This document shows positions 4,168 to 59,489 of a DNA stretch of 64,000 nucleotides, piece after piece; the first letter of the stretch is position 1, and every line of letters begins with the position of its first letter. The notes below the pieces were generated by a model. That model saw only the letters and a program-made list of their open reading frames with translations. It searched no databases and was not told where the DNA came from. The position numbers and the translations under genes are program-made. The DNA is from Frondihabitans sp. PAMC 28766 (lineage in GTDB: Bacteria; Actinomycetota; Actinomycetes; Actinomycetales; Microbacteriaceae): positions 4,216,001 to 4,280,000 of the forward strand of contig NZ_CP014513.1 in assembly GCF_001577365.1 (NCBI RefSeq), in the 5' to 3' direction.

Positions 4168-4257
4168 CCGTTGGCAAAACAGGGGAAGGCCGTCCGCCGC
4201 GACGAGGGCCGCGGTGCGCACGGCCCGTGCGTGCAGAAAATCCGGTTTCACCAACGG
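4168..4257. repeat. Palindromic element copy 1
   Basis: Ends CCGTTGGCAAAACAGGGGAA and TCCGGTTTCACCAACGG form an imperfect inverted repeat around a GC-rich loop. It lies immediately upstream of the VOC gene, so it could affect that gene's leader. The inner arms are less well matched than in copy 9. Confidence 0.8.
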
Positions 4258-4344
4258 CCCAGTCCTCCGACGAGCGGCGGGCCGCTGCCGCCGAGGCCGC
4301 GCAGCGCCAGCGAGGCCGCGCAGGCGGCTCGCGCCCGGCGCCGG

Positions 4345-4436
4345 CCGGTTGGTAAAACCGGAGTTCGCGCAGAGTGCGCCGAGACCGCCCGGCCGCTTGT
4401 GCCGAGCTGCGCGCATTCTCCGGTTGTACCAACCGG
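4345..4436. repeat. Palindromic element copy 2
   Basis: Ends CCGGTTGGTAAAACCGGAG and TCTCCGGTTGTACCAACCGG. The terminal pairing GGTTGG/CCAACC differs from the GTCGG/CCGAC pairing of other copies, a compensatory change. It lies about 90 bp from copy 1. Confidence 0.85.
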
Positions 4437-4548
4437 GGGCGGCGGCGCGGGGTGCGACGGCGCGGGCGGGCAGCGGGCGAGCGGCGCGGGGTGCAATGCC
4501 GGATGCGAGCGGCGGCAGCGCGACGGTGCGCGGGCGTGCGGGCGGGGC

Positions 4549-4652
4549 GTCAGGGGCGCCGGCCGTCAGGGGCGCGCGGCGTCACGGGCGCGCGGCGTCA
4601 CGGGCGCGCGGCGTCAGGGGCGCGCGGGCCGGGGCCGTCAGGGGCGCGCGGC
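4549..4652. repeat. 16-bp tandem repeat at the 3' end of a hypothetical gene
   Basis: About six copies of a unit like GTCACGGGCGCGCGGC, one displaced by an 8-bp insert. The last copy contains the stop codon (TGA, 4640-4638) of the hypothetical gene, so slippage here could alter its C-terminus. Confidence 0.75.
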
Positions 4653-5282
4653 GCGGATGGTGGTCGTGACGTCGACGAGAGCGGGGGTGGCCGGGGCCGA
4701 ACCGAAGCCGAAGCGGACGGGAGGCGACAGGCGGGCGAGGGCCCCGAGATCCTGCCCCTCGAACGTCGCCTCGAGTGACGTGATGCGGCGGGCGAGTGTG
4801 ACGCCGTAGTACTCGCGGCGGCCGCGACCGGCGGTGCCGGCTGTGGCCGCCCCGGGCACCAGGATGCGGGCGATCGGGTCGACGAGGCCGAGCCAGCCGG
4901 GCCGCGTGGCGAAGGCCGACGGCACGGCCCGCAGCAGGGCGCCCAGCCAGGTGATGCGGCCGACGCCGAGCCGCGCGTGCAAGAGGGGCTCCTCCCCCGC
5001 GCGCCCGGCGACGACCTCCAGCCCGCCGTCGACCTTGCGCCACGAGACCGGCACGACCCGCACCTCGTCGAACGTGTAGGTCGACGAGACGTACTCGGCG
5101 ACGTCGTCGCCCGGGGCCAGCAGGAGGCGATGGCCCACCTCGGTCTCGATCATCACGTCGGCGAAGCGGCCGAGGGGTGACTCCGCCCACAGCCCCATCA
5201 CGATGCGGGTCTTCGCGGCCGTGCCGACGCCGGCGATGCGGCCGACGAAGCGCTCGTCAGCGGTGCAAATGGTGGTCATCAC
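4638..5282 (-). CDS. Conserved-looking hypothetical protein
   Basis: A 214-residue soluble protein beginning MMTTICTADERFVGRIAGVG; the second Met at 5279 is an alternative start. I do not recognise the family. It has alternating beta-rich segments (RIVMGLWAESPLGRFADVMI, HRLLLAPGD, TYTFDEVRVVPVSW) that resemble small lipocalin- or decarboxylase-like beta-barrels, but no catalytic motif I can name. It is divergent from the fructose operon with 133 bp between them. The C-terminus ends in the 16-bp tandem repeat. Codon usage matches neighbours, so it is likely a real gene. Confidence 0.65.
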   Translation of the reverse strand: MMTTICTADERFVGRIAGVGTAAKTRIVMGLWAESPLGRFADVMIETEVGHRLLLAPGDDVAEYVSSTYTFDEVRVVPVSWRKVDGGLEVVAGRAGEEPLLHARLGVGRITWLGALLRAVPSAFATRPGWLGLVDPIARILVPGAATAGTAGRGRREYYGVTLARRITSLEATFEGQDLGALARLSPPVRFGFGSAPATPALVDVTTTIRAARP

Positions 5283-5321
5283 TCGAGCGTACGCAGGGGT
5301 TCCTCACTCGACACATCTGGC

Positions 5322-5366
5322 ATTGTCTGCGATTGTCTTGTTTTCTGTGTCATTCGGGCATATCGT
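5322..5366 (+). promoter_or_regulatory. Fructose operon promoter with direct-repeat operator candidate
   Basis: A -35 TTGTTT (5338-5343) and -10 TATCGT (5361-5366) are separated by exactly 17 bp, 50 bp before the regulator's ATG. Two ATTGTCT direct repeats at 5322-5328 and 5332-5338, spaced one helical turn apart, abut the -35 box and are candidate sites for the DeoR-type regulator encoded by the first gene. This is inference from position. Confidence 0.5.
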
Positions 5367-5415
5367 CTCTGCAAGCACAGGCAAAGCAACGAGTAGGCGA
5401 CGCGGAGGTCACCGG

Positions 5416-7166: not shown

Positions 7167-7250
7167 CCCTCCCCAGGCCCACGCGTCGCACCACTTGTCG
7201 CATCACTGAACTGGCACCACCCATTCGCAGCAGCAAAGGAGCTCCAGCCC

Positions 7251-9395: not shown

Positions 9396-9447
9396 AGCGG
9401 CGCTTCGGCGTCGCGGCGCTTGCGCCCTGGGCACCGGCGGCCCGCCC

Positions 9448-9547: not shown

Positions 9548-9640
9548 CCCTTGGCAAAACAGGAGAAACCGCGCGGCCCGAGCGGCCGTCGGCGCGGAAG
9601 TCCCGAGGGTCAGCGTCAAATCCTGTTTTGCCAACAGGGG
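9548..9640. repeat. Palindromic element copy 3
   Basis: Ends CCCTTGGCAAAACAGGAG and TCCTGTTTTGCCAACAGGGG. Both arms carry the CAGG/CCTG variant instead of CCGG/CCGG, so base pairing is preserved by paired changes. Confidence 0.88.
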
Positions 9641-11792: not shown

Positions 11793-13641
11793 GTTCGTTC
11801 ACCTTTCGGGCCCAGCTGGTCGAGCGGGCGAGTGTCGGGTCGGTGCGAGCGAAGTCGCGGCGGAAGTGGGCGCCGCGCGACTCTTCGCGGGCGAGGGCGG
11901 CGGCCACCACGAGGCGGGCGACGTCGCGGAGGTTGGCGGTCTCGAGCAGCGCGGTGCGCGGGGCTGTGCCCGCAGCGGTTCTGTCGGCGCCCCCGTCAGC
12001 GCCCCCGTCAGCGCCCCCGTCAGCGCCCCCGTCAGCGCCCCCGTCGGCGCCCCCGTCGGCGCCCCCGTCGGTAAAACCGGAGTTCTGACGGAGCGTCGCC
12101 GCGGCAGCCCGGGCGGCGTGCCCAGACCGTGCGGATTCTCCGGTTTGACCAACCGGCGCCGCGGCCCCGACGGCAGCCGCCTCCGGCAGCTCGCCCTCGT
12201 CGAGGGCGTCGAGCGCGGCGGCGAGGGTCTCACCCGAGCGCTCGACACCGGCCGCGCCCCACATCAGCCTCTGCAGCGCCGCCCGCTCGGGCACGGCGTC
12301 GTCGACCGACGGGGGCCGCACGGCGTCGTGCCGCGACGCGTCGTCGAAAGCCGACGACCCGGTCGCGTCCGCGCCGACCGCGGTGGCCGCGCGCCAGCCG
12401 AAGACGGCGGCTTCGAGCAGCGAGTTCGACGCGAGCCGGTTGGCCCCGTGCACCCCGGTCGAGGCGACCTCGCCGACGGCGTAGAGGCCTTCGAGCGACG
12501 TGCGGCCGTCGAGGTCGGTCGCGATGCCGCCCATGAAGTAGTGCGCCGCCGGTGTGACGGGGATCGGCTCGCTCGCCCAGTCGAGGCCTGCCGCCCTCAT
12601 CGCCGCGGTGATGGTCGGGAAGCGCCGGGCGAGGCCGGCCGCCCCGATCATCGTGGCGTCGAGCAGGGCGGGAAGCCCCGCCTGGCCGGCCATCATGTCG
12701 AAGATGCCGCGGGCGACCACGTCGCGGGGTGCCAGCTCGGCACGGCGGTCGACGGCGGCCATGAAGCGGCGGCCGCCGGCGTCGAGCAGCACCGCGCCCT
12801 CGCCGCGCACTGCCTCGCTGATCAAGAAGGAGCCCGGCATGGCGAGGGCCGTGGGGTGGAACTGGAAGAACTCGAGATCCTGCACCCGTGCGCCGGCCCG
12901 CCAGGCCGCGGCGAGGCCGTCGCCGGTCGCGGCGAGGGGGTTCGTCGTGAACTCGTAGAGCTGCCCGGCCCCACCCGACGCGAGCACCACGGCGTCGGCG
13001 CGGAGGTCGCTGACGCCGGCGGCCGTGACGAGCGAGACGCCCACGACGCGGCGCTCGTCGCTGGAGGCCAACAGGAGGTCGGCGACGAACGCCTGCTCGA
13101 CGACTTTGACGTCGGAGGCGGCTAAGCGGGCCAGCAGGGCCTGGACGATCGCGGCGCCGGTCGCGTCGCCGCCGGCGTGCAGCACGCGGGCACGGCTGTG
13201 CGCGGCCTCCAGCCCGCGGGCCCAGCCCGCGGCACCACCGGCGGCAGGACCACCAGCTCGAGCCGCGTCGGCAAAACCGGAATTCGCGCCGCCACCGACC
13301 TCCGCGCGGTCGAACTCGACGCCCCAGCGCGCGAGATCCTGAATTCTCAACGCGCCGTCGGTGCAGAGCGCCAGGACGGCGTCGTGCACGGAAAGCCCGG
13401 CCCCGGCCGCGAGAGTGTCGCCGACGTGCAACTCGACGGAGTCGTCGTCGAAGACGGCGGCCGCGATGCCGCCCTGCGCGTAGCGGGAGTTGCTCTCGTC
13501 GAGGGCGCCCTTCGTGACGAGGGTGACCGAATGCCCGAGAGCCGAGGCCCGGAGCGCGGCGGTCAGCCCGCCGAGCCCCGAGCCGACCACGACGATGCTG
13601 CGCGGCGCAAGCAGGCGAGCGGCCGACGCGGCGCCACTCAC
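11779..13641 (-). CDS. nadB: L-aspartate oxidase with a palindromic-element insertion
   Basis: A FAD enzyme oxidising L-aspartate to iminoaspartate, the first step of de novo NAD synthesis. The FAD motif is IVVVGSGLGGLTAAL near the start; SRYAQGGIAAAV, VVLASGGAGQLYEFTTNPL, FFQFHPTAL and GVHGANRLASNSLLEA are canonical. The GTG start overlaps nadA's TGA (GTGA). At 620 residues it is about 70-80 longer than usual. The excess comes from the encoded palindromic element plus GGAD tandem repeat at 11983-12156, lying before the C-terminal helical domain, and from a smaller Ala/Gly-rich insert (ANSGFADAARAGG) near residue 120 that resembles half an element. The frame and flanking domains remain intact, so the enzyme is probably functional. 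Confidence 0.93.
   Translation of the reverse strand: MSGAASAARLLAPRSIVVVGSGLGGLTAALRASALGHSVTLVTKGALDESNSRYAQGGIAAAVFDDDSVELHVGDTLAAGAGLSVHDAVLALCTDGALRIQDLARWGVEFDRAEVGGGANSGFADAARAGGPAAGGAAGWARGLEAAHSRARVLHAGGDATGAAIVQALLARLAASDVKVVEQAFVADLLLASSDERRVVGVSLVTAAGVSDLRADAVVLASGGAGQLYEFTTNPLAATGDGLAAAWRAGARVQDLEFFQFHPTALAMPGSFLISEAVRGEGAVLLDAGGRRFMAAVDRRAELAPRDVVARGIFDMMAGQAGLPALLDATMIGAAGLARRFPTITAAMRAAGLDWASEPIPVTPAAHYFMGGIATDLDGRTSLEGLYAVGEVASTGVHGANRLASNSLLEAAVFGWRAATAVGADATGSSAFDDASRHDAVRPPSVDDAVPERAALQRLMWGAAGVERSGETLAAALDALDEGELPEAAAVGAAAPVGQTGESARSGHAARAAAATLRQNSGFTDGGADGGADGGADGGADGGADGGADGGADRTAAGTAPRTALLETANLRDVARLVVAAALAREESRGAHFRRDFARTDPTLARSTSWARKVNEHADR
11983..12066. repeat. 12-bp tandem repeat inside nadB
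   Basis: Seven consecutive units like GTCAGCGCCCCC, read on the minus strand as GGAD repeats. The array runs straight into the palindromic element: the CCCCCGTCGG of the last unit is also the element's terminus. Confidence 0.9.
12065..12156. repeat. Palindromic element copy 4, in frame inside nadB
   Basis: Ends CCGTCGGTAAAACCGGAG and TCTCCGGTTTGACCAACCGG. On the coding strand it reads PVGQTGESARSG...LRQNSGFTDG without a stop, adding about 31 residues to L-aspartate oxidase between the catalytic region and the C-terminal helical domain. Confidence 0.88.
13265..13288. repeat. Half palindromic element inside nadB
   Basis: The stretch CGTCGGCAAAACCGGAATTC matches the left arm of the family. The facing arm is not recognisable. 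On the coding strand it gives ANSGFADAA, close to QNSGFTDGG of the full copy in the same gene. It may be a decayed copy. Confidence 0.5.
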
Positions 13642-24956: not shown

Positions 24957-25042
24957 GTTGGCAAAACCGGAGATTCCAGGGCAGCGCCTTCGGGGCTTCC
25001 ACCCCCAGGTCTCCGCCGCGTGAATACTCCGGTTTTGCCAAC
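24957..25042. repeat. Palindromic element copy 6
   Basis: Ends GTTGGCAAAACCGGAG and ACTCCGGTTTTGCCAAC are a perfect 15-bp terminal inverted repeat apart from the innermost base. One of the best-preserved copies. Confidence 0.9.
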
Positions 25043-25167: not shown

Positions 25168-25260
25168 CCCTGTTGGAGAAATCGGACTCTCTGCCCGACC
25201 GCTGCCAACTATCGCCGCACGGGCTTCGCGCAGAGGGGTTTCTCCGGTTTTGCCGACCGG
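25168..25260. repeat. Palindromic element copy 7
   Basis: Left end CCCTGTTGGAGAAATCGGA is diverged; right end TTTCTCCGGTTTTGCCGACC is canonical. It lies 126 bp from copy 6. Confidence 0.75.
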
Positions 25261-26954: not shown

Positions 26955-28226
26955 ATGCCGAGCGACTCGCCGACCACTCCCTCCGCCCTGCGAGTGGCCA
27001 TCATCGGCACGGGAATGATCGGCGCAGTGCATCGGCGGGCCGCTCGAGACGCAGGATCCGTCGTCTCCGGCGTGCTCGCATCCTCGCCCGAGAAATCGCT
27101 CGAGTTCGCTGCCGCCTGGGGTGTCCCTTCCGGCTACGCGTCGCTCGACCAGTTGCTCGCCGATCGCCCGGACGTCGTGCAGATCTGCACCCCGAACGCG
27201 ACGCATCACGCGTACGCGCTGGCCGTGATCCGCGCCGGAATCCACGTCGTCTGCGAGAAGCCGCTGGCGCTCGGCGCGGCCGAGGCCCTCGAGCTCGCCT
27301 CGGCAGCCCGGGCCGCCGGGGTCGTGGCGACCGTGCCGTTCGCCTACCGCTATCACCCGCTCGTGCGCGAGCTGCGGGCCCGCCGACAGGCCGGCGAATT
27401 CGGCGAGGTCGTGCTCGTGCACGGCTCGTACCTGCAGGACTGGCTGCTCGACCCGTCGTCGTCGTCGTGGCGAGTGGATTCCGCGGCCGGCGGCACGTCG
27501 CGCGCCTTCGCCGACATCGGATCGCACTGGTGCGACCTCGCCGAGTTCATTTCGGGCGAGCGGTTCGAAAGCGTCTCGGCGGTGATGACGACTGTCTATC
27601 CGACCCGGCCCCGGCCGATGGGCCCGTCGTTCGGGGCGGGCGCCGGCGGGTATGCGGCATCGTCCTTCGCCGGGGCCGCGTCGTCTGCGTCTGCGTCGCA
27701 CGGCGAGCCCGCATCGCACGGCGAGCCCGCATCGCACGGCGAGCGCGCGTCGCACGGCGAGCCCGATCGCATCGAGGTCACGACCGAGGACACCGCCGTC
27801 GCCACTTTCCGCACGGCCTCGGGCATCACGGCGAACACTGTGATCTCGCAGGTCTCGGCCGGGCGCAAGAACCGCCTCTGGGTCGAAATCGACGGGTCGC
27901 GCGGCAGCGCCGTCTTCGACCAGGAGAACCCCAACACCGTGTGGATCGGCACCGACGAGGGAGCGCGGCTGCTCGACCGCGCCTCGGGGGCGGTCGCGCC
28001 CGACCAGGCCCGCCTCGACCTCGTGCCCGCAGGGCACCCGCAGGGCTACCCCGACGCCTTCGCCGCTTTCCTCGCCGACACCTACGCGGCCGTTCGCGCC
28101 GCACAGGCCGGAGGCCAGCCCCCGGACGGCCTCCCGACCTTCGCCGACGGCCTCCGCGCGGCGCGGATCATCGACGCCGTAGTCGCCTCGGCCGCCTCGG
28201 CCGCCTGGACGCCCATCCCCGCCTGA
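26955..28226 (+). CDS. Gfo/Idh/MocA-family oxidoreductase
   Basis: A 423-residue NAD(P)-dependent sugar or inositol oxidoreductase. The Rossmann motif is VAIIGTGMIGAVHRRAA at about residue 13; the family signature VVCEKPLALG holds the EKP lysine, and GGTSRAFADIGSHWCDLAEF carries the catalytic-type Asp and His. AAGGAG 5 bp before the ATG at 26955 fixes the start. Residues about 247-270 are four in-frame SHGEPA-type repeats inserted between two strands of the C-terminal domain, an unusual expansion. Neighbours upstream are dead monooxygenase/GntR genes. Substrate unknown. Confidence 0.9.
   Translation: MPSDSPTTPSALRVAIIGTGMIGAVHRRAARDAGSVVSGVLASSPEKSLEFAAAWGVPSGYASLDQLLADRPDVVQICTPNATHHAYALAVIRAGIHVVCEKPLALGAAEALELASAARAAGVVATVPFAYRYHPLVRELRARRQAGEFGEVVLVHGSYLQDWLLDPSSSSWRVDSAAGGTSRAFADIGSHWCDLAEFISGERFESVSAVMTTVYPTRPRPMGPSFGAGAGGYAASSFAGAASSASASHGEPASHGEPASHGERASHGEPDRIEVTTEDTAVATFRTASGITANTVISQVSAGRKNRLWVEIDGSRGSAVFDQENPNTVWIGTDEGARLLDRASGAVAPDQARLDLVPAGHPQGYPDAFAAFLADTYAAVRAAQAGGQPPDGLPTFADGLRAARIIDAVVASAASAAWTPIPA
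27693..27764. repeat. 18-bp in-frame tandem repeat in the Gfo/Idh gene
   Basis: Four units like GCATCGCACGGCGAGCCC encode (A)SHGEP repeats. The copies differ by single bases. Unit length is a multiple of three, so copy-number changes keep the frame. Confidence 0.9.
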
Positions 28227-28318
28227 GCCCCGAGCCGGTCCGGCCTCGCGACGAGCGATGCCCGCACCGCTCACGCGAAGACCTCCTGCGCCCCGCTCGG
28301 GAGGACGTCCTCCGCGGC

Positions 28319-29290
28319 TCACGCGCCCAGCCCTTCCGCCACCCGGCGCAGCCCGGCGGACGCTCGGCACCGCCACAGCCGTCGCCTGCCCTGCGGTCGA
28401 GGCCAGGTCGTCACGGCCGGCGGCATCGACCGTCGTGCCTCGTTCCACCGTGACAGCGGCCTGACATGCAGCTCGAGCGCCGACCGAACGGCCGCGAGGA
28501 TCTTCGCCCACTCGTACCGGACCATAGAATAGCTGCCCCGCAGGACCAACCAGCCCTGCCGCACGATCGCGAGGTCCTTTCGACGGTCCGACTCGAAGCG
28601 GTCCTGATGGAACTCCCGCCCGTCGAGCTCGATCGCGACAGTGCCGTCGACCACGAGGTCGACCTTGGACGCGCCCGGAACGGGGTGCTGGGTCACGATC
28701 GTGTGACCCTCGCGGAGGAGACGAACGCGACCGACGCTCTCGATGACGCTGTCGGATCCTGCGTCGCCCCATTCTGCGATCCCCCGCCGATCGAGAGGGA
28801 GGAGTGCTGCCACCTCGTCGAGGGCGCTCTCGCTGAACCACTCGCACGCCAGCGCCCAATCCCAGAGAGCCACCGCCGACTCGAAGTCGACCTCGGCGAG
28901 GGCCCGCACGAGTGCGTCGCGCGGATCGACCACGCTGGCAGTGCCGCGGCGCTCGACCCGCGGCGGGTCGTAGGCGACGACGGCCTTCCGGTCGACTGTC
29001 AGGCGCGACGAGTGGGCCGGCACAGACACCGAGAAAGTCGACGCGCGATTCCAGGTCCACGCCCCGAAGATTTCGAGAGCGGCCTGGCCGGTGAGGCGCC
29101 CACCGGCGCGAGCGGCTCGAAAACGCAAGTCGTCGGGCGAGAAGGTCGAATACCACCCCCGCCGGGGTCTCCGCACTTCGCCCTCTCGTACGGCTCGCGT
29201 GAGGTCGCGGTCGCCGGCCCCTCGGGCGACGAGATCGCGCTTGTGCAGCAGCCCGCCTGCCTCGGCAACCCACTCGTGAATGCTGGTCAT
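28319..29290 (-). CDS. DUF559/AbiEi-like protein with winged helix and endonuclease-fold domain
   Basis: A 323-residue protein. The N-terminus (HEWVAEAGGLLHKRDLVARG, then VREGEVRRPRRGWYS) resembles the winged-helix antitoxin-like domain common in actinobacterial AbiEi-type proteins. The C-terminal half contains a PD-(D/E)xK/Vsr-like core, VDLVVDGTVAIELDGREFHQ and DLAIVRQGWLVLRGSY, with Asp, Glu-x-Asp and His in the expected places. Such proteins are widespread and mostly uncharacterised. No toxin partner lies next to it. The start MTSIHEW at 29290 is favoured, since the frame upstream runs through a palindromic element. Confidence 0.75.
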   Translation of the reverse strand: MTSIHEWVAEAGGLLHKRDLVARGAGDRDLTRAVREGEVRRPRRGWYSTFSPDDLRFRAARAGGRLTGQAALEIFGAWTWNRASTFSVSVPAHSSRLTVDRKAVVAYDPPRVERRGTASVVDPRDALVRALAEVDFESAVALWDWALACEWFSESALDEVAALLPLDRRGIAEWGDAGSDSVIESVGRVRLLREGHTIVTQHPVPGASKVDLVVDGTVAIELDGREFHQDRFESDRRKDLAIVRQGWLVLRGSYSMVRYEWAKILAAVRSALELHVRPLSRWNEARRSMPPAVTTWPRPQGRRRLWRCRASAGLRRVAEGLGA

Positions 29291-29416
29291 GGCGACAAGG
29301 ATCGCTGGATTCGCGGTGCGGCGAGGGCCACTTCGGCAATCTGTGGAGAACTCGCTACGCGAGGCGGCATGTGGAGGACAGGACGCGCGCGGAGCGCGAC
29401 CGCGGTCGCTCCACGC

Positions 29417-29502
29417 GTCGGCAAAACCGGAGTTCGGGCGGCGCGCGTCGCGCGCGGGCCGCCGCCCGGCGCCGCCACCCCCGAACTCCTCTTTTGCCAG
29501 CA
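29417..29502. repeat. Palindromic element copy 8
   Basis: Ends GTCGGCAAAACCGGAGTTCG and CGAACTCCTCTTTTGCCAGC. The inner arms GGAGTTCGGGCGGCG and the facing CCGCCACCCCCGAACTCC extend the pairing. Confidence 0.85.
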
Positions 29503-29646: not shown

Positions 29647-29740
29647 CCCTGACGGCACAACAGGAGTTCGCGCCCCGCGCGGCTGGGGCCGCCAGCGAAG
29701 CGAGCGGCGCCCCGCGCGAACTCCTGTTTTGCCGACAGGG
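29647..29740. repeat. Palindromic element copy 9
   Basis: Ends CCCTGACGGCACAACAGGAG and ACTCCTGTTTTGCCGACAGG. It carries the CAGG/CCTG variant in both arms and the best inner pairing of all copies (CAGGAGTTCGCGC with GCGCGAACTCCTG). Confidence 0.88.
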
Positions 29741-36936: not shown

Positions 36937-37026
36937 CCGTCGGCAAAACCGGAGAAACAACTGCGGCGGCGCGGGCCACCCCCGGAGCCCGTTGTCGGGC
37001 GGCGCATTCTCCGGTTTTGCCAACGG
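36937..37026. repeat. Palindromic element copy 10
   Basis: Ends CCGTCGGCAAAACCGGAGAA and TTCTCCGGTTTTGCCAACGG, paired over 20 bp with one G.T-type mismatch. Confidence 0.9.
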
Positions 37027-37140: not shown

Positions 37141-37230
37141 CGGTCGAAAAAACAGGAGAAAGCGCAGCGGCAGCTCCGGCTGGCGGCGAGATCTGCCGAC
37201 GGGCGACGCGATCTCCGGTTTTGCCAGCGG
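37141..37230. repeat. Palindromic element copy 11
   Basis: Left end CGGTCGAAAAAACAGGAGAA is diverged; right end ATCTCCGGTTTTGCCAGCGG is canonical. The right end runs into GCGGGCGGGC and AAGCAGGC short tandem repeats. Confidence 0.8.
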
Positions 37231-37752: not shown

Positions 37753-39102
37753 CTACACCCCCGCGGGGGCGAGCCGCGCGGCCGTGTGGCGGTTGACGGG
37801 CACGGGGATGCCGAGGTTGCCGCGCAGGGTCGACGAGTCGTAGTCGCGACGGAAGACGCCGCGATCCTGCAGCAGCGGCACCACTTCGGCCACGAAGCGC
37901 CGGAACTGCGCGGGGTGCTCGACATGCACGTTGAAGCCGTCGACCCCGCCTCCCTCGAACCACTCGATGAGGCGGTCGGCGACCGTCGCCGCAGTCCCGA
38001 CGAAGATGCCGGGCTTCGGCGCGGCGAACCGCTCGACGACCTGGCGGAGGCTGAGGCCCTCGCGCAGGGCGTCGTCGGTGATCCTGTCGGCCTGCGTCTT
38101 GAAGCTCAGCGCTGCGACGTCGCGCACGTCGGGGAAGGCCGCGTCGGGGTCGTACTGGCTGAAGTCGTGCCAGCCGAAGGGGCGCCCGAGCTCGGCTCGG
38201 GCGCGCTCGAAGCTGTAGTTGAGAGCCTGGGCCTCGCTCTCGAGACGGCGGGCGTCGTCGTCGGTGTCGCCGACGAACACGGCGATGCCGGGCATGATGC
38301 GAAGCTCGTCGGCGTCCCGGCCCTTCGCGGTCGCACGAGAGCGCAGATCGTCGCGGAACGCCTTCGCCTGGGCGAGCGAGACCGCGTGCGTGAAGATGCC
38401 CTCGCCGAACGCGGCGCCCAGGTCGCGGCCCTGCTCGGAGTCGCCGGCCTGGAAGATCACCGGCTGCCCCTGCGGTGAGCGTTCGATGTTCAGCGGGCCC
38501 ACGACGCGGGGGAAGTAGGTGCCCTCGTGGTTCAGCGCGTGCTGCTTGGTCGGGTCGAAGAAGACGCCCGAGGCGCGGTCGCGCGGGAAGGCGTCGTCCT
38601 CGTACGAGTCCCACAGCCCCTGGATGACCTCCAGGGCCTCCTGCGCGCGCCCGTACCGGGTGTCGTAGTCGTAGTGCTCGTCGCGACCGTAGTTGCCCGC
38701 CGTGCCGGCGTCGCCCGAGGTGACCACGTTCCATCCGGCGCGCCCGCGGCTGATCAGGTCGAGGGAGGCGAACCGGCGAGCGAGGTTGAAGGCGTCGTTG
38801 TACGACGTGGTCGCGGTCCCGACGAGCCCGATGTGCTTCGTCGTGACGGCGAGCGCCGACAGCAGCGTCAGCGGCTCGAGGCGGTTGAGGTAGTGGGGAG
38901 GCGAGTTCGGGGTGATGAACTGGCTGTCGACGATGAAGACCAGGTCGAACTTCGCGCTCTCGGCGAGCCGCGCGTACTCGATGTACCAGTCGACGTTGAC
39001 GCTCGAATCGACGGGCAGGTCGGGGTCGAGCCAGGTGTTCGGGTGGCCGGGGCCGCCGGCGCCGGTCAGCACGACGCCCAGATGCAGCTGCGTGTCAGTC
39101 AT
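37753..39102 (-). CDS. LLM class flavin-dependent monooxygenase (NtaA/SnaA/DszA family)
   Basis: A 449-residue FMNH2-dependent monooxygenase. Family motifs: HLGVVLTGAGGPGHPNTWLD, FDLVFIVDSQFITPNSPPHY, HIGLVGTATTSYNDAFNLAR, SRGRAGWNVVTSGDAGTAGN and PVIFQAGDSEQGRDLGA. Homologs oxidise nitrilotriacetate, dibenzothiophene sulfone or pristinamycin and need a separate flavin reductase. The ATG at 39102 has AAGGAG upstream and overlaps the hydroxylase stop by 8 bp. It is the last gene of the eight-gene operon; its paralog heads the same operon and has the same length. No flavin reductase gene is present nearby. Confidence 0.93.
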   Translation of the reverse strand: MTDTQLHLGVVLTGAGGPGHPNTWLDPDLPVDSSVNVDWYIEYARLAESAKFDLVFIVDSQFITPNSPPHYLNRLEPLTLLSALAVTTKHIGLVGTATTSYNDAFNLARRFASLDLISRGRAGWNVVTSGDAGTAGNYGRDEHYDYDTRYGRAQEALEVIQGLWDSYEDDAFPRDRASGVFFDPTKQHALNHEGTYFPRVVGPLNIERSPQGQPVIFQAGDSEQGRDLGAAFGEGIFTHAVSLAQAKAFRDDLRSRATAKGRDADELRIMPGIAVFVGDTDDDARRLESEAQALNYSFERARAELGRPFGWHDFSQYDPDAAFPDVRDVAALSFKTQADRITDDALREGLSLRQVVERFAAPKPGIFVGTAATVADRLIEWFEGGGVDGFNVHVEHPAQFRRFVAEVVPLLQDRGVFRRDYDSSTLRGNLGIPVPVNRHTAARLAPAGV

Positions 39103-40932
39103 GTCGTTCTCCTTCGAATTGCAGTTCGGGTTCCGGTTCGTGGGGGCCGTTCGAGGCGGCAGGAGCCGACGGGTCAGCAGGAGCCGACGGGTCGGCAGGA
39201 GCCGACGGGTCGGCAGGGCCCGACGACACGGCTCGCACCCGCCCGTACGCCCGGTCGAGGACGGCGCCGACATCCGTGGCATCCTGCGCCGCCCCGCGCC
39301 AGGCCACGTGGTGGTCGGGCCGAACGAGCGCGAAGTCGGCCCCGTAGGCCTCGCGCGCGTCGCTCTCGTCGAGGTAGACGACGTCGAGGGCGATGCCCCG
39401 CGCGGCCGCGGCCGACACGAACGGCTCGACGAGCGTGAGGTCACGGGTCAGCACGAGCAGGGCCGTGTTCGCGCCGATGCGGTTGTAGAGGGTGTCGCCG
39501 TAGGGGTCGACGTTGCCGTTCGGGGCACGGTGGCCCGGGCGGCCTTCGGGGAGGTACCGGAAGGGGTCCCAGGCGGGATCCGACGCCGTCTGCCCGTCTT
39601 CGTACCAGACGACGCTCGACTCGTCGTAGCGCTCGTCGAGGTCCACGCCGACGGCCGGGCCGTCGTGGCGCGCGATGATGTCGCCCATCTCCGCGCGCTT
39701 TCGCGCCGCCTCGTCGCTCGTGTCGGAGTCGTCGGGCACGCCGAGGGCGCGCACCCGCTGCCACGCGGCGTCGGAGGCGCGGCTCGACGCGAGCGCGTGG
39801 GCCGAGACCCGCGCATCGTGGAGGTGGCGCTCCTCGTGGTACGAGTGCAGCAGAGCCTCGCCGCCGGTGCCGCGCAGCACCGCCGCCAACTTCCAGCCGA
39901 GGTTGAACACGTCGCCGAAGCCCTGACCCAGATTGCCGCCCGGTGCCCGGATGTGAGCCGCGTCGCCGACCAGCGCGACCCGCCCGCGCACGAATTCGTC
40001 GGCGATCCTGGTGCTCTTGAAGAACGGGGTGATCGACACCACCTCGAGGTCGATGTCGAAGCCGAACGCGGCCCTCCCCACGGCGAGGAACTCGTCGTCG
40101 GTCGGCCGGTGGTCGAGGGCGTACGGGCCGCAGTGGATGCGCCAGTCGGTCGCGTCGAGGGCGGCGAGAAAACCGGAGTACTCGTTGTTGAAAATGATGT
40201 TCGTCGCGCTGGGGTAGGGCTCGAGCCGCGCCGGCAGCGGGCCCTTCACGCGGACGACGACGCGGAAGTGGCGCTCGGTCGCGTGTTCTCCTGATCGCTC
40301 GACGCCCACGAGCTGCCGCACGGTGCTGCGTGAGCCGTCCGCCGCGACGACGTAGCGCGAGCGGATGTCGCGCTCGTCGCCGGTCGCCTCCGAGCGCACG
40401 CGCGTCGTGACTCCTGCGCCGTCGTCGTCCACGGCGCTCACGCGCCAGCCGCCGCTGACCGGCACGCCGCGCGACGCCAGCTTCTCGAGGAACACCTTCT
40501 GCAGTACCGTCTGAGGCCGCCGGATCCCGTCTTCGAACGAGTGCGCGCCACCCACGCCCTTGCCGAAGCTACGGGTCGTCGTGCCGCGCAGGCGATGGCC
40601 CACCAGAGAGGTGAGGAAGAGAGTGCCCTTGTTCCACTCGGGCGGGAAGGTCCACTCCTCTTTGATGCGGTCGACCACGCCCCAGCGCCGGAAGAACTCG
40701 ACGGTGCGCGGCGAGTGCCCGAAGGCGCCGGCGCGGATGAGGGTGAACTCGGTCGCGGCGTCGACCACGGCGACGTCCACCCCGTGGCGGTCGAGCTCGA
40801 TGGCGGTGGCGAGCCCGGACGGCCCGGCCCCACGACGAGCACGTCGACGTCGACGGGCGGCGGCCCCTGTCGGGGAATCAGGACGACGTCGACCCGGCGG
40901 CCGTCGGCGTGCGCCGTGTCAGTGGTGCCCAT
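39095..40932 (-). pseudogene. Frameshifted FAD-dependent monooxygenase (aromatic hydroxylase type)
   Basis: The gene starts MGTTDTAHADGRRVDVVLIP at 40932 and reaches VDVDVLVVGPG, then needs one base in the CCCC run (GGGG in the mRNA) at 40828-40831 to continue as PSGLATAIELDRHGVDVAVV. With that base it encodes 612 residues: GxGxxG FAD motif, SRYVVAADGSRSTVRQLVGV (DG motif), ALVGDAAHIRAPGGNLGQG (GD motif) and a thioredoxin-like C-terminal domain, as in phenol or 3-(3-hydroxyphenyl)propionate hydroxylases. The tail has three to four ADPSAP repeats. Everything downstream is intact, so an assembly error is quite possible. Confidence 0.85.
39158..39211. repeat. 18-bp in-frame tandem repeat at the end of the FAD monooxygenase gene
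   Basis: Three units like GGCAGGAGCCGACGGGTC plus a partial fourth encode ADPSAP repeats in the C-terminal tail. The unit includes CCGACGGG, resembling a palindromic-element terminus. Confidence 0.85.
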
Positions 40933-40957
40933 ACGATTCTCCTGTTTTCTCAGCGCG
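40864..40957. repeat. Degenerate palindromic element over the start of the FAD monooxygenase gene
   Basis: Left end CCCTGTCGGGGAATCAGG and right end GATTCTCCTGTTTTCTCAGC are spaced like family members and resemble copy 7. It spans the ATG at 40932 and would supply the N-terminal residues HADGRRVDVVLIPRQG, absent from typical family members. Weak similarity. Confidence 0.4.
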
Positions 40958-43601: not shown

Positions 43602-44714
43602 TCAGACCCCTCTCTTCGCGGCGGGATCGATGCGGTTGAGGGCGATGTTGATGAGCAGGTTGAAGCCGACCACGATGACGATGGAGACGACGAGCACCCC
43701 TTCGACGCTCGGCACGTCGCCGTGGAGGGCCGACGTCGACGCGAAGACGCCGTAGCCTGCGAGCCCGAAGATCGACTCGGTGACGACAGCGCCGCCGAGC
43801 AGGGTGGGGAAGGTGAGCCCGACGTAGGCCAGCGCGGGGCCGCCGCCGTTCCGGAGCACGTGCGTGAAGAAGATGCGGCGCGGGCTGAGCCCGTGCACGA
43901 TGGCGCCGGTGATGTAGTTCTGGCCGTAGGTCGTGACGAGCCCGGCCCGCAGCTGCCTCGCGACGCCGGTGATCATGTCGAAGCTGAGGGCGATGGCCGG
44001 CAGGATGATGTGACTGAACCAGATGCTGAAGCCCTGGTGCAGCGACACGTAGCCGGCGGACGGCAGGATCTTGAACTGCACCGCGAACACCGCGACCAGG
44101 ATCACGCCGACCGTGAAGGGCGGCATCGACGCCATCACCGACGTCACGGCCGTCACGGTGCGGTCGAGCCACGAGGCCCGGAAGAGCGCAGCCAGCGTGC
44201 CGAGGATCGCCCCGACGACGACGCCGATGATCAGGGCCAGCACCGCCACCGAGAGGCTGATGCCGATCCGCTGCCCGATGAGGGTCGACACCGAGATGCC
44301 GTCGACCCAGCTCTGGCCGAGCGAGCCGTGCAGCAGGTCGGTGAACCAGTTCCAGTACTGCACGATGAACGGCCGGTCGAGCCCGTACTGGTGGTTCAGC
44401 CGGGCGACGGCGGCAGGCGTGGCCGCGTCGCCCAGCTGAACGTAGGCCGGGTTGAGACCCGACAGGGTGCCCAGCAGGAAGGTGATGAAGGTGCCGAACA
44501 GGAACACCGGGATGAAGACCAGGAACGGGCGCAGGATCGCGAACCCCACGCGGCGTGCGCGCAGGGAGCCCGTCGTGCGTGGCTCGCGCCGACGCGCGAC
44601 CGCCACCCGTCTCACTTCGATCTCGCGGCGTGCGCGCAGGGAGCCCGTCGTGCGTGGCTCGCGCCGACGCGCGACCGCCACCCGTCTCACTTCGATCTCG
44701 GTGCCTGTGGCCAT
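43602..44714 (-). CDS. ABC transporter permease (DppB-like) with a duplicated N-terminal segment
   Basis: A 370-residue DppB/OppB-type permease: IPVFLFGTFITFLLGTLSG in helix 1, GLDRPFIVQYWNWFTDLLHG, GQSWVDGISVSTLIGQRIGI, and the EAA loop TYGQNYITGAIVHGLSPRRI. The first 55 residues are unusual: after MATGT comes the basic segment EIEVRRVAVARRREPRTTGS-LRARR encoded twice by a perfect 75-bp tandem duplication. A start after the repeats is conceivable but no better ribosome-binding site was seen. The SBP gene stops 7 bp upstream. Confidence 0.9.
   Translation of the reverse strand: MATGTEIEVRRVAVARRREPRTTGSLRARREIEVRRVAVARRREPRTTGSLRARRVGFAILRPFLVFIPVFLFGTFITFLLGTLSGLNPAYVQLGDAATPAAVARLNHQYGLDRPFIVQYWNWFTDLLHGSLGQSWVDGISVSTLIGQRIGISLSVAVLALIIGVVVGAILGTLAALFRASWLDRTVTAVTSVMASMPPFTVGVILVAVFAVQFKILPSAGYVSLHQGFSIWFSHIILPAIALSFDMITGVARQLRAGLVTTYGQNYITGAIVHGLSPRRIFFTHVLRNGGGPALAYVGLTFPTLLGGAVVTESIFGLAGYGVFASTSALHGDVPSVEGVLVVSIVIVVGFNLLINIALNRIDPAAKRGV
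44551..44700. repeat. Perfect 75-bp tandem duplication in the permease gene
   Basis: Units 44551-44625 and 44626-44700 are identical over all 75 bp, beginning CGGCGTGCGCGCAGGGAGCC. The length keeps the frame and duplicates 25 basic residues at the permease N-terminus. Lack of any divergence suggests a very recent event. Confidence 0.95.
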
Positions 44715-46440: not shown

Positions 46441-47790
46441 CTAAGCGAGCACCTTCTGTGAGCGGCGAGCGGTATGGCGGTTCTCGGGGACGGGGAGCCC
46501 GAGGTTGCCGCGCAGGGTCGACGACTCGTACTCGGTGCGGAAGATGCCGCGCTGCTGCAAGAGCGGCACGACGTCGTCGACGAAGCGCCTGAACTGCGAC
46601 GGCTGCTCGAGGTAGATGTTGAACCCGTCGACGGCACCGCCGGTGAACCACTCCTCGATGAGGTCGGCCACGTGCTCGGGCGTGCCGACGAAGTGGCCGC
46701 GCTTCGGCGCCGAGAATCGCTCGACGGTCTGGCGCAGCGTCAGGCCCTCGGCGAGAGCGGTGTCGGTGATCTCGTCGGCGCGGGTCTTCCAGGCGAGCGT
46801 CGCGATCTCGCGCACGTCGGGGAAGGGTGCCTCGGTGTCGTACCCGCTGAAGTCGTACCAACCGAACGCGCGACCGAACTCGGCGCGGGCCCGGTCGAAG
46901 TCCCAGTTCATGTCGTTGGCCCGCTGCTCGAGCGCGCGCGCCTCGTCGTCGGTGTCGCCGATGAAGAAGCGGACACCCGGCTGGATCAGGAGGTCGTCGC
47001 AGCGACGCCCGGCCTCGGCCGCGCGACGGCGCATGTCGTCGCGGAAGGCCTTCGTCTTCTCGAAGCTCTCGCCGTGCGTGAAGATGCCCTCGCCGAGCTG
47101 GGCCCCGAGGTCGCGGCCCTGGTCGGAGTCGCCGCCCTGGAAGATGACCGGCTGACCCTGCGCCGAGCGCTCGATGTTGAGCGGGCCGACGATCTTCGGG
47201 AAGTAGGTGCCCTGGTGGTCGAGGGTGTGCTGCTTGGAGGGGTCGAAGAACGCCCCAGTCTCGCGGTCGCGAGGGAAGGCGTCGTCCTCGTAGGAGTCCC
47301 AGAGGCCCTGGATGACCTCGATCGCCTCGTGGGCGCGGCCGTAGCGGGTGTCGTAGTCGTAGTGCTCGTCACGGCCGTAGTTGCCCGAGGTGCCCGAGTC
47401 GCCTGTCGTCACGACGTTCCAGCCGGCGCGTCCCCGGCTGATCAGGTCGAGGGAGGCGAAGCGGCGGGCCAGGTTGAACGGGTCGTTGTACGAGGTGGTC
47501 GCGGTGCCGACGAGACCGATGTTCTTCGTCGTGACGGCGAGCGCCGAGAGCAGGGTGAACGGCTCGAGGCGGTTGAGGTAGTGAGGCGGCGAGTTCGGCG
47601 TGATGAACTGGCTGTCGACGATGAAGACCAGGTCGAACTTGCCCTCTTCGGCGACGCGAGCCTGTTCGATGTACCAGTCGACGTTGACGCTCGAGTCGAG
47701 GGGCAGATCGTCGTAGAGCCAGGTCTTGGGGCGACCGGGGCCGCCGGCACCGGTCAGGATCACGCCGAGGTGGAGACTGCGTTCGGTCAT
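46441..47790 (-). CDS. LLM class flavin-dependent monooxygenase, first gene of the transport/oxidation operon
   Basis: A 449-residue paralog of the monooxygenase at the other end of the operon, sharing long identical stretches such as SRGRAGWNVVT and NYGRDEHYDYDTRYGRA. MTERSLHLGVILTGAGGPGR is the start; PVIFQGGDSDQGRDLGAQLG and LRGNLGLPVPENRHTARRSQ mark the end. Like relatives acting on chelators or organosulfur compounds it should use FMNH2 from an unlinked reductase. The two paralogs may act on successive intermediates or be partly redundant. The promoter presumably lies in 47791-47925, shared with the divergent MFS gene. Confidence 0.93.
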   Translation of the reverse strand: MTERSLHLGVILTGAGGPGRPKTWLYDDLPLDSSVNVDWYIEQARVAEEGKFDLVFIVDSQFITPNSPPHYLNRLEPFTLLSALAVTTKNIGLVGTATTSYNDPFNLARRFASLDLISRGRAGWNVVTTGDSGTSGNYGRDEHYDYDTRYGRAHEAIEVIQGLWDSYEDDAFPRDRETGAFFDPSKQHTLDHQGTYFPKIVGPLNIERSAQGQPVIFQGGDSDQGRDLGAQLGEGIFTHGESFEKTKAFRDDMRRRAAEAGRRCDDLLIQPGVRFFIGDTDDEARALEQRANDMNWDFDRARAEFGRAFGWYDFSGYDTEAPFPDVREIATLAWKTRADEITDTALAEGLTLRQTVERFSAPKRGHFVGTPEHVADLIEEWFTGGAVDGFNIYLEQPSQFRRFVDDVVPLLQQRGIFRTEYESSTLRGNLGLPVPENRHTARRSQKVLA

Positions 47791-50660: not shown

Positions 50661-50753
50661 CCCGTCGGTAAAACCGGACTTCCGTGCCGCCCCGACCACC
50701 GAGATGCGAAGCCGGCTGCTGCGCCGAACGAATCTCCGGTTTTTCCGACGGGG
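50661..50753. repeat. Palindromic element copy 12
   Basis: Ends CCCGTCGGTAAAACCGGACT and AATCTCCGGTTTTTCCGACG. The terminal pairing is GTCGG/CCGAC, compensatory to GTTGG/CCAAC of other copies. It lies between the divergent NRDE and coaBC genes. Confidence 0.88.
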
Positions 50754-52109: not shown

Positions 52110-52204
52110 CCCTGGTTGGTAAAACCGGACTTCAGGTCGAAGCCGACCGACACGTCCCACCATTCGGTCGACGCCACGTCCGATGTCCGGTTTCGCCAAC
52201 CGGG
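52110..52204. repeat. Palindromic element copy 13
   Basis: Ends CCCTGGTTGGTAAAACCGGA and TCCGGTTTCGCCAACCGGG. The GGTTGG/CCAACC ends pair perfectly. It lies 75 bp after coaBC. Confidence 0.88.
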
Positions 52205-56949: not shown

Positions 56950-56951
56950 CC

Positions 56952-58015
56952 ATGCACTTCGGCTACTGGACCCCGGTCTACGGGGGCTTCCTCCGCAACG
57001 TCGGCGACGAGGGCATGCCCGCCGCGTGGTCGTACATCAAGCAGATTTCGCAACAGGCCGATCGCCTGGGCTACCACACCACTCTCGTGCCCGAGCTCTA
57101 CCTCAACGACCGCAAAGGCATCGACGCCCCGTCGCTCGAGGCGTGGTCGCTCTCGACCGGCATCCTCGCGGTCACCGAGCGTCTGCGCGTCATGACCGCG
57201 GTTCGCCCCGGCTTCCACCTGCCGGCCGTGATCGCGAAAGCGACGAGCACGATCAGCGACATCGCCGGCCTCTCCCCGAGGGCGCGAGCCGCTTCGCTCT
57301 GAACGTCGTCGCGGCCTGGTGGGCCGAGGAGGCCAAGCAGTACGGCGGCGTCTTCACCACGCACGACCGGCGCTACGAGCAGGCGACCGAGTTCGTCGAG
57401 ATCCTGCACGGGATGTGGACCGAGCCTCGCTTCGACTACGACGGCGCGTTCTGGAAGGCCGAGGGCGCGATCCTCGAGCCCAAGCCGGCGGCCCTGCCTG
57501 CCATCTTCGCCGGCGGCGAGAGCGAGGCCGGCCGCGAGGCGATCGCCGCGTTCGCGGACAGCTACGTGCTGCACGGCGGCACCCTCGACGAGGTGGCCGA
57601 CAAGGTGCAGGACATGGACGAGCGGCGCCTCCGGATCACGGGCGAGCGCTTTCGCGAGTACGGCATGGCCGCCTACGTCATCGTGCGCGACACCGAGGCC
57701 GAGGCCCAGAAAGAGCTCGACCGCATCACCGAGGTCGATCCGGACTCGCCCGGCTACGCCTCGTTCGAGGAGTTCCGCGCGCACTCGAACCTCGACGTCG
57801 AGCTCTCGAAGCGCGAGTACTCGGTCGGCACCCGCGGCCTCCGCCCGAACCTCGTCGGCACGCCCGAGCAGGTCGCCGACAAGATCCGGGCCTACCAGGA
57901 TGCAGGTCTGACGCTGCTCCTGATCCAGTCGAGCCCGCTCGACGAAGAGCTCGAGCGCATCGCGCGCGACGTCTTCCCGCTCGTCCCGGCGCGGGCCGCG
58001 ACTCCCGTCGTCTGA
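56952..58015 (+). pseudogene. Frameshifted LLM monooxygenase, alkanesulfonate/sulfone type
   Basis: It starts MHFGYWTPVYGGFLRNVGDE, characteristic of the SsuD/SfnG-like branch that releases sulfite from organosulfur compounds with FMNH2. It runs through HTTLVPELYLNDRKG to SDIAGLSP, where the CCCC at 57274-57277 needs one added base to continue EGASRFALNVVAAWWAEEAK, LPAIFAGGESEAGREA and NLVGTPEQVADKIRAYQDAG, for 354 residues. Its start is 2 bp after metY, so a sulfur-scavenging role fits. The gene may be intact in reality. Confidence 0.85.
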
Positions 58016-58037
58016 GGTCGCGCGAAATCGGCTTCCG

Positions 58038-59489
58038 CTAGGCGGCGACTTCGGCGGAGGCGGGGGCGAGCACCGCATCGGCGATGCGGTAGGCCACCTG
58101 GCGCACTTCGCCGATGGCGACGGTCTCCCAGAGGGCGCCCTTGAGCGCTGCGCCGATGGTCAGGATGCGCGTCGACGGCTCGCCGTCGGCGCTGCGGACG
58201 AAGCCGGACGGGTCCGCGTCGACTCCGATGCCCGTCGGGTCGGCGACGATCGTGCCGCGCCCGAGCAGCCGGTCGACGAGCGGGCTCCAGCCCGCTGACG
58301 CCACCGACGCGGGCCCGGTGCAATTGATCGCGACGTCGAACGACTCTCCCGCGACGTCGCCGGACGACTTCAGCGTGAGCGTACCGTCCTCGAGCAGAGC
58401 CGAGAGCTCAGCCCAGACAGCGGGCGCCATGCGGTGACGATGCACGTCCCACCGGCGGGCGGCGTGGGCGAGGAAGCGCTCGCGATCGGCGACGGAGAGC
58501 CGGAGCCACAGGGCCTGCGTCTGCGGTCGCAGGCCGTCGAGGACTGCCTGCCACGGGGATCCTGTAGCCGTCGCATCGCGCAACTGCCGCCCGAACAGCG
58601 TGGCCATCTCGCCGAGCGTCGAGACGTCGTCGCCGAGGCCGGGCCCGGGGGCCGCGGGGCCGGTGAGGTGCACGGCCGGCAGCATCAGGTGGCGGCTGGT
58701 GGCCGTCAAGCGGATGCCCGGGCTTCGGCGCGCGAGCGAGGTCGCGACGTCGATCATGGTGAGGCCGGTGCCGATCAGCAGGATGCGATCGCTCGCGGTG
58801 ACACGGTCGAGAGCGCCGGGCGCCCACGGATCGTCGATCGACCGCTGGGCGTTCGACGGCACGAGGCCCGGGGCCGGGTTGCCGAGCGCCAGCACGACGC
58901 GGTCGGCCGACAGCGTGCGGCCGTCGGCGAGGGTCGCGGTCACGCCCGCGTCGCCGCTCGGCCCGTCAGCGCTCGGCCCGTCAGCGCTCGGCCCGCCAGC
59001 GCTCGGCCCGTCGACGCGGCGCCCGTCGGCACTCTGCCCGTCGATAAGACCGGAGATCTCGCCCTCCGCCACGTCGACGACCTCGCCCTGGACGAACCGC
59101 ACACCGGAATCCGGTTTTCCCGACAGGGCAGCGAAGCTCGACGCCACGTAGTCGCCGAAGACGCGACGCGGAACGAAGGTGCCTGCTCCTGCCGCCGAGC
59201 CGTCGACATCGCGCCAGCCGACCTCGTCGAGATAGCGGAGGAAGGCGGCATCGTCGGTGGCCGAGAGGCTCATCTTGCCGGCAGGGCTATTGAGGCGGTG
59301 GTGTTCGTCCGCGCGCCCGTAGGCGAGGCCGCGGCCGACCTCGGGCTCGCGCCCGACGACGGTGATGCGAGGTGCAGGCGTTCCTCCGACTGCCGCGCGG
59401 TCGCGAAGCGCGAACGTCACGAAGACGGCGCTGGCGCCCCCTCCGACGATGAGGATCTCGTCACTGCCGACGGTTGCATGAGGGCTCAT
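58038..59489 (-). CDS. FAD/NAD(P)-binding protein with an embedded palindromic element
   Basis: A 483-residue flavoprotein. N-terminal dinucleotide motif ILIVGGGASAVFVTFAL, the GRGLAYGRADEHHRLNSPAG segment typical of FAD-NAD(P)-binding proteins of the HI0933/CmoJ-like sort, VVLALGNPAPG, LIGTGLTMIDVATSLA and INCTGPASVASAG. Residues about 120-185 comprise a palindromic element (LSGKPDSGVRF...GEISGLIDGQS) and ADGPS tandem repeats before DAGVTATLADGRTLS. The catalysed reaction is unknown. It converges on the SsuD-like gene. Confidence 0.82.
   Translation of the reverse strand: MSPHATVGSDEILIVGGGASAVFVTFALRDRAAVGGTPAPRITVVGREPEVGRGLAYGRADEHHRLNSPAGKMSLSATDDAAFLRYLDEVGWRDVDGSAAGAGTFVPRRVFGDYVASSFAALSGKPDSGVRFVQGEVVDVAEGEISGLIDGQSADGRRVDGPSAGGPSADGPSADGPSGDAGVTATLADGRTLSADRVVLALGNPAPGLVPSNAQRSIDDPWAPGALDRVTASDRILLIGTGLTMIDVATSLARRSPGIRLTATSRHLMLPAVHLTGPAAPGPGLGDDVSTLGEMATLFGRQLRDATATGSPWQAVLDGLRPQTQALWLRLSVADRERFLAHAARRWDVHRHRMAPAVWAELSALLEDGTLTLKSSGDVAGESFDVAINCTGPASVASAGWSPLVDRLLGRGTIVADPTGIGVDADPSGFVRSADGEPSTRILTIGAALKGALWETVAIGEVRQVAYRIADAVLAPASAEVAA
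58956..59045. repeat. 15-bp in-frame tandem repeat beside palindromic copy 14
   Basis: Six increasingly diverged units from GCTCGGCCCGTCAGC to ACTCTGCCCGTCGAT, coding ADGPS-type pentapeptides. The last unit is the terminus of the palindromic element. Confidence 0.85.
59037..59128. repeat. Palindromic element copy 14, in frame inside the FAD/NAD(P)-binding gene
   Basis: Ends CCCGTCGATAAGACCGGAGA and AATCCGGTTTTCCCGACAGG. More diverged than others (GATAAG for GGTAAA) but spacing and pairing are those of the family. It stays open in the coding frame. Confidence 0.7.

Follow-up and report, generated by a model that had tools for sequence, protein, structure and literature searches.

A family of short repeats, mostly 86 bp long, lies clustered in the chromosome of a Frondihabitans strain, and the repeats are conserved paired sites that, to judge from the DNA sequence, are very probably bound by a DNA-binding nuclease encoded among them. 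We put the probability of such a site-nuclease partnership at about 0.8. The stretch of DNA that was analysed, called the window here, comprises 64,000 nucleotides (C1:4216001-4280000 of genome G000, which has 4.77 Mb in 4 contigs), and the nuclease gene occupies positions 28319-29290 of it. An earlier note on the window had described the repeats as a dispersed palindromic family and had missed this gene, which is the likely partner. The system looks like an undescribed partnership of a nuclease with private DNA sites.

The elements and their half-sites

A half-site profile made from 39 arms, with pair distances of 60-130 bp permitted, was run over 246 kb (C1:4100001-4345897). It found 29 elements spanning 4,149,767-4,306,267 (156 kb), 15 of them inside the window, and four first-order Markov shuffles of the same 246 kb gave none at the same threshold. 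All 15 places named in the earlier note were recovered, including the half copy near 13265 and the degenerate copy near 40864 (Table 1), and the family is thus real and larger than described. Lengths are nearly uniform: 86 bp in 21 elements, 85 bp in four, 87 bp in three and 76 bp in one. The elements carry two inverted copies of an asymmetric half-site of about 20 bp (consensus approximately CCCnGTYGGYAAAACMGGAGWTY), and its centre has no conserved letters. Since the profile scan was limited to 246 kb, genome-wide confinement was judged by pattern searches. All 32 matches to GTTGGCAAAACCGGAG with at most two mismatches fall at 4,149,837-4,303,045, against one match to the reversed pattern; a looser pattern gave 56 matches (control, 5), of which 39 are again in that region, and the A-rich core is missing from the remaining 17. 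The excess over shuffled sequence, on which the earlier note made the family depend, is therefore present. The copies had also been called often paired; eight of the 28 neighbour-to-neighbour gaps are shorter than 300 bp.

Base pairing between the arms, said to be kept by double changes, does not hold up when the 3' arms are shuffled among the 29 elements. Complementarity of the core arms is 386/551, against 392.3 +/- 7.5 after shuffling (p=0.82); the outer flanks behave alike (p=0.60), as do positions 2 and 11 (p=0.15 and 0.21), the source of most of the double changes claimed. In the 21 elements of 86 bp, arm complementarity is hardly above the expectation from independent columns, and no base pairing is seen across the centre. 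A hairpin inside a single arm (CCNGT/ACNGG) is ruled out by positions -1 and 11, which show no such pairing, and a hairpin or RNA structure overall is ruled out by the pair-by-pair and shuffle tests. As the halves do not covary, the argument for a hairpin fails; the two halves act as separate copies of one asymmetric site.

Related elements in other lineages carry lineage-specific half-sites. A sequence-only model was run over 398 genomes of the bacterial family with only 10 candidates scored per genome, so that its counts are lower bounds; its hits were mostly weak and some were clustered, and many of the weak ones are probably due to chance. Matches to a TCAGGA-type pattern fall in a single chromosome stretch in G068, G354 and G156 (142, 37 and 45 kb, respectively), mostly on one contig in G043 and G049 (with two and one elements, respectively, on others) and on three contigs in G061. 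The spacing of the halves is quantised. Among 93 pairs from six element domains, 64 are spaced at 85-87 bp, 12 at 75-76 bp, 10 at 97-98 bp and two at 120 bp, the total including five pairs outside all classes (55, 116, 130, 143 and 150 bp), and the reversed motif gave no pairs in any of the six domains. A period of 10.9 bp fits best (R=0.92; uniform spacings reach 0.33 at their 99.9% point). Most of this R is owed to the 86-87 class, and the step itself is shown by the separate classes at 76 and 97-98 bp. Single half-sites at the threshold used for spacing are partly chance hits (87 in the Frondihabitans domain, 37 with the reversed motif). That the steps measure about one helical turn suggests a need for the half-sites to face the same side of the DNA, and this spacing, together with conserved half-sites around a free centre, argues for sites bound by a protein. 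Elements of genus g43 are longer (matches of 106-129 bp) and those of the type-ii nuclease genes introduced below are shorter (mostly 44-65 bp).

The half-sites are under selection where they stand. In eight element pairs from congeneric genomes, picked because the element is present in both and with whole arms counted, half-sites are identical at 220/224 positions (98%), and centres (317/512) and flanks (495/800) at 62% each. Of the selected DNA or RNA structure proposed earlier, the selection thus remains and the structure does not: the halves lack covariation, the centre is unpaired and the spacing follows DNA turns. Some positions are kept even across genera, an element being found in the intergenic region after leuA in G068, G354, G156, G049 and Frigoribacterium; in the alignment of this region from Frigoribacterium the place is conserved and there is no clean element-sized gap. 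G001 is a congener without elements, in which 11 intervals could be compared (five more were left out because a flanking ortholog is missing). Eight are shorter than here (among them 61 vs 592, -4 vs 350, 38 vs 157 and 4 vs 586 bp), two longer and one equal within a base. No arm above 12 bits occurs in these 11 intervals, the best (9.3) being at the 99% point of background, and one 12.2-bit arm lies elsewhere in the 100 kb of G001. Presence and absence therefore do vary, as the idea of a non-autonomous mobile repeat in the earlier note demanded, and the variation was observed only between species. That idea survives in this respect, in the half-sites that fall within variable in-frame stretches of NadB and in the link to a gene, but not in the strict sense of a miniature inverted-repeat transposable element (MITE) or of a REPIN (a doublet of repetitive extragenic palindromes).

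The nuclease gene and the private motifs of its relatives

The nuclease gene sits in the middle of the elements, with 14 of the 29 to its left and 15 to its right, and it lies within the element cluster in all five other genomes examined. Residues E184, D211, E221, D223 and H228, which are expected of a Vsr-like nuclease, are invariant in ten of ten aligned proteins. The five genomes, of four genera, share a synteny block (in G354: leuA, a PF03458 gene, recO, an uppS-like gene, a class II tRNA synthetase gene, a dsbA-like gene, dus, an HD gene and dnaG). Fewer genes are common to them and the Frondihabitans region; apart from a few others, these are a nad operon, a NarL-type regulator and the fast-evolving nuclease gene. 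The NarL-type regulator and the nad operon are also in the domain, yet both were rejected as the partner, as they do not explain the sites of nuclease paralogs elsewhere; in other genera, what matches the NarL-type regulator may be a paralog of it. In G001 and G005 the nuclease gene is absent from the syntenic place and a homolog lies elsewhere in the genome, and no elements were found in the syntenic stretches examined (100 kb and 60 kb, respectively). The window protein has no match in two collections of plasmids and phages. A horizontally acquired island is ruled out by this and by the synteny of the region with other Frondihabitans, and an integron-like cassette array by the genes between the sites, which are syntenic and in many cases metabolic.

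If the gene owns its sites, other members of its family should own other sites, which makes the paralogs the decisive test. The type-i set comprises 33 loci from a scan of GTDB genomes (Microbacteriaceae and metagenome-assembled genomes of Micrococcales/Actinomycetota), with 249 other genes of the same loci as controls. An inverted repeat (arms matching at 14/16 or more) ends 90-190 bp upstream in 24/33, compared with 10/249 controls (p=9.5e-20, uncorrected for kinship), most often 100-135 bp before the start codon; in a second, partly overlapping set, 21 of 30 loci have an upstream inverted repeat (60-210 bp). An arm common to both flanks (at least 14/16) is found at 10/33 loci vs 0/249 controls, and at 13/16 the counts are 13/33 vs 7/249. 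In a second DUF559 subfamily, type ii, arms common to both flanks (at least 12/16) occur at 13 of 37 loci, again against none of the 249 controls; the 37 include two duplicates (L213=L163, L228=L173), leaving 35 without them. DUF559/MTES_1575-type nucleases are numerous in this bacterial family: one type-ii query had matches in 43/60 genomes, with up to 13 per genome.

The motifs are private. In five of five genomes tested, the arms belonging to a gene occur most often in the surroundings of that gene. A paralog at 568 kb of the Frondihabitans chromosome has a motif of its own, CTTCGGYAATTCAGGCC, in an 87-bp element upstream and in a 98-bp one at its 3' end. All seven genome-wide matches with at most one mismatch lie at 540-578 kb, as do three of the 13 with two mismatches; most of the other ten belong to a different, dispersed family. 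Among 20 paralog loci, like elements were seen by eye on both flanks at five (L161, L167, L168, L169 and L173), and a cluster of at least three elements at one only, that at 568 kb. The odd motifs of g43 and g73 flank a nuclease gene in five of six genomes (G122, G048, G375, G285 and G245). A third family in the Frondihabitans genome, GTCGG-AATTCAGGC, forms 75-bp pairs at C1:652136-652210, 1071100-1071174 and 1881240-1881314.

Several observations weigh against the partnership. The Pfam scores of the window protein, 26.9 (cut-off 38.2), 24.2 (25) and 19.3 (20.6), are all below the curated cut-offs, and no solved relative was found by sequence. For PF13338, the AbiEi winged helix, the window protein scores 24.2 bits, that of G068 27.9 and the 568-kb paralog 14.0, with G354 not listed; matches to PF18741 and DUF559 are below cut-off in all four proteins scanned. 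The window gene has no element at its 3' end. In PhB188 (G002) the nuclease gene is present with a single weak candidate element in 40 kb and no profile hit, and a paralog there (L190) has only its own upstream pair. Nine of the 33 type-i genes, including the syntenic genes of Leaf304 and PhB188, have no upstream inverted repeat at 14/16, and at L209, one of the ten loci with shared arms, the motif behind the score does not look like the gene's own. Relaxed thresholds bring noise: with a 12/16 criterion, 18/33 loci vs 52/249 controls share arms, and 23/33 vs 54/249 have two or more recurrences. The 33 loci are not independent, because 17 come from Frigoribacterium (10) or Frondihabitans (7). 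The third motif of the Frondihabitans genome is spread over the chromosome and forms no cluster. Other motifs stand at the two nuclease loci examined in G146, and in G061 the elements are dispersed and the nuclease gene found there has another motif.

Some further features of the nuclease genes were recorded. Between element and start codon, mostly in Frondihabitans, stands TTNTCCACAG (e.g. window 29335-29350), which we take to resemble a DnaA box; TCCACAG is found upstream of 7/33 nuclease genes vs 8/249 controls. The nuclease gene at about G043:C6 176900-177786 looks frame-shifted in its 5' half. Between two Frondihabitans species (window 26955-29290 and about 2485732-2487871 in G003), the nuclease gene and its neighbour stand in inverted order relative to the flanking gene.

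Table 1. Partner gene and elements in the window (positions counted from its first letter)
Feature	Position	Strand	Description
Likely partner gene	28319..29290	-	323 aa; AbiEi-like winged helix at residues 7-47, PF18741/DUF559 Vsr-like nuclease domain at 190-272
Element	4170..4255	.	86 bp; strong half-sites at both ends
Element	4348..4433	.	86 bp
Element	9550..9635	.	86 bp; phosphotransferase system (PTS) gene on one side, NifS-like cysteine desulfurase gene on the other
Element	12067..12153	.	87 bp; in variable in-frame stretch near the 3' end of nadB
Solo half-site (from 13267)	13267..13351	.	In variable in-frame stretch of nadB; arm scores 31.5 and -3.0, second arm not significant
Element	24957..25042	.	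86 bp; 16-bp arms perfect
Element	25172..25257	.	86 bp
Element	29417..29501	.	85 bp; 126 bases upstream of the nuclease start codon
Element	29651..29736	.	86 bp; second upstream of the nuclease gene
Element	36939..37024	.	86 bp
Element	37143..37228	.	86 bp
Degenerate element	40869..40954	.	86 bp; arm scores 7.5 and 12.7
Element	50664..50749	.	86 bp
Element	52115..52200	.	86 bp
Element	59040..59124	.	85 bp; inside predicted coding sequence 58038-59489(-)

In G354 (C1 2280172-2282174) and G156 (C1 1243364-1246595), half-sites that are perfect or nearly so occur at distances of 200-360 bp within nadB and adjoining genes, and between some of them the coding sequence is conserved. The window also has short GC-rich tandem repeats with units of 12 to 75 bp (4542-4651, 11973-12069, 27693-27764, 39152-39223, 44549-44698 and 58940-59040). 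Two of these touch elements (12067 and 59040), and the 75-bp pair at 44549 is 100% identical. A stretch at 37781-38684 is duplicated at 46469-47372, 8,688 bp apart, with two 300-bp parts 77% and 85% identical; both genes of the duplication map onto one G001 gene.

Proposed mechanism and its alternatives

In the proposed mechanism, the winged-helix nuclease would recognise the elements as bipartite sites. Each asymmetric half-site would be read by the AbiEi-like winged helix at the N-terminus of one protomer, and two protomers on two inverted half-sites would meet on the same face of the helix and join across the unconserved centre. Such pairing would leave the sequence of the centre free and set the lengths mostly whole turns apart (76, 86 and 97 bp). 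The element just upstream of the nuclease gene would probably autoregulate it, as in AbiE operons, with the others scattered in the neighbourhood. Each nuclease paralog has its own motif. The sites are held in place by purifying selection, with mainly vertical inheritance and slow gain and loss, as in the REPIN-RAYT system (RAYT, REP-associated tyrosine transposase). The nuclease would most likely nick or cut at or near its sites, repair then spreading them locally. Local spread of this kind would explain the clustering around the gene and the bracketing of it, and a purely regulatory or architectural use would explain the strict conservation in place. The binding mode of AbiEi described in PMC7319586 fits asymmetric half-sites of about 20 bp, the one-turn steps and the placing of the element, whose end is most often 100-135 bp ahead of the start codon.

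The elements might instead be plain transcription operators of a domesticated repressor, regulating neighbouring genes or titrating the repressor. AbiEi relatives autoregulate through inverted repeats (PMC7319586), and most nuclease genes have an element upstream, commonly at the distance just given. However, 6 of the 14 element-bearing intergenic intervals that could be called are convergent, and 9 of the 29 elements overlap coding sequence predicted by a simple gene caller. Elements also occur at the 3' end of nuclease genes, and the five nuclease residues named above are invariant in the ten aligned proteins. We consider operators of this kind possible but unlikely.

The confinement of the sites, the helical phasing of their halves and the positions kept between genera, such as that after leuA, would also be expected if the sites marked a domain of about 150 kb for a nucleoid or segregation protein (of the matS, parS or Ter kind) and the nuclease gene were a bystander. 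However, the domain, at 4.15-4.31 Mb, coincides with neither the origin nor the terminus: dnaA is at 0.868 Mb and a dif-like site at 2.54 Mb. These positions rule out a terminus or origin marker on this chromosome, and no GC-skew switch is evident in the element region. In G068, G354 and G156, the element domain is about 0.09-0.32 Mb from the dif-like site. Nor does a domain marker predict the differently lettered sites of nuclease paralogs elsewhere, and we regard it as improbable.

Still less credible is the strict MITE/REPIN reading, in which single-stranded DNA hairpins (with the GTYGGYAAAACMGGAG motif) are moved by a Y1 transposase encoded elsewhere in the genome. Two inverted arms at near-constant length, a mostly intergenic location (20/29) and presence or absence between species are what such elements would show. 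Yet the arms do not covary, the centre is unpaired, the lengths are quantised by the helical turn, the arms stay in place while the centres drift, and the linkage is to a different enzyme. The earlier note saw no RAYT gene in the window and none turned up here, in work that did not search the genome for RAYT. Convergent flanking genes apart, we give almost no weight to an RNA-level element (a terminator or structured untranslated region) selected in the transcript, since the halves do not covary, the spacing follows DNA turns, and the confinement to one domain would go unexplained.

The partnership of nuclease and sites may be part of something larger. We see an even chance that Actinobacteria hold a widespread undescribed system in which DUF559/Vsr-like winged-helix nucleases, many paralogs per genome, are each bracketed and surrounded by private, helically phased bipartite sites that are spread locally by the nuclease and kept by selection; in effect, the way of life of REPIN-RAYT would then have been invented a second time, independently, and with a nuclease of the restriction type. 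Linking each DUF559/MTES_1575-type nuclease to private sites gives a predictable DNA target for every member of a family that has had no known function. It also adds an example in which a population of short repeats goes with a nuclease and without a RAYT, and this is relevant to the question why populations of this kind last. A family of sites that stays within about 100-150 kb around its gene raises the question of how the sites spread or act locally, for which the known systems compared here offer no mechanism. In the open-access literature, no title or abstract opening among the matches listed describes repeats tied to DUF559/AbiEi-like nucleases or states a role for DUF559/MTES_1575-type nucleases.

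Comparison with known systems

Rickettsia palindromic elements lie in frame within host genes, and the half-sites in variable in-frame stretches of the host protein NadB recall them. They differ from the elements described here, which have a proposed partner gene, quantised spacing and selected arms. Homing endonucleases of the Vsr-like (EDxHD) type have a Vsr-like fold and are encoded by selfish genes. Here, in contrast, sites stand on both sides of the gene and many copies of them stay intact, and the data give no sign of a nuclease gene inserted into its own site.

The nuclease domain is the same as that of MTES_1575, which PMC3710099 describes as a "novel Vsr-REase" (restriction endonuclease) joined to winged helices within a large HEPN protein; the text on MTES_1575 in the available part of that paper mentions no associated DNA repeats. 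The type IV toxin-antitoxin system AbiE resembles the present system in its winged helix (here a PF13338 match below cut-off), in its inverted repeats upstream and in repeat gaps that differ by 10 bp. According to PMC7319586, AbiEi monomers bind 23-bp inverted repeats, bend the promoter and autoregulate, with gaps between repeats of 3 and 13 bp in two systems. However, a C-terminal nuclease domain here replaces the antitoxin domain, and there are many sites over 156 kb, with half-sites about 50 bp apart.

The closest likeness is to REPIN-RAYT. PMC3116915 and PMC8049555 describe its repeats as doublets, with a separate motif for each gene and copies on the flanks of that gene; the system is inherited vertically and is absent from plasmids. 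All of these have counterparts here: short elements with inverted arms, a motif per gene, flanking copies, vertical inheritance and no plasmid match. Doublets of inverted arms of about 16 bp, with the arms conserved and the spacer less so, are likewise found. In spite of this, the hairpin pairing of REPINs is absent, the spacing is quantised by DNA turns, and copies cluster around the gene (in G000, G068, G354 and G156) and are not dispersed genome-wide. Copies number in the tens, compared with 69-235 in E. coli, and the partner flanked by the arms is a winged-helix Vsr-like nuclease gene of the PF18741/DUF559 type.

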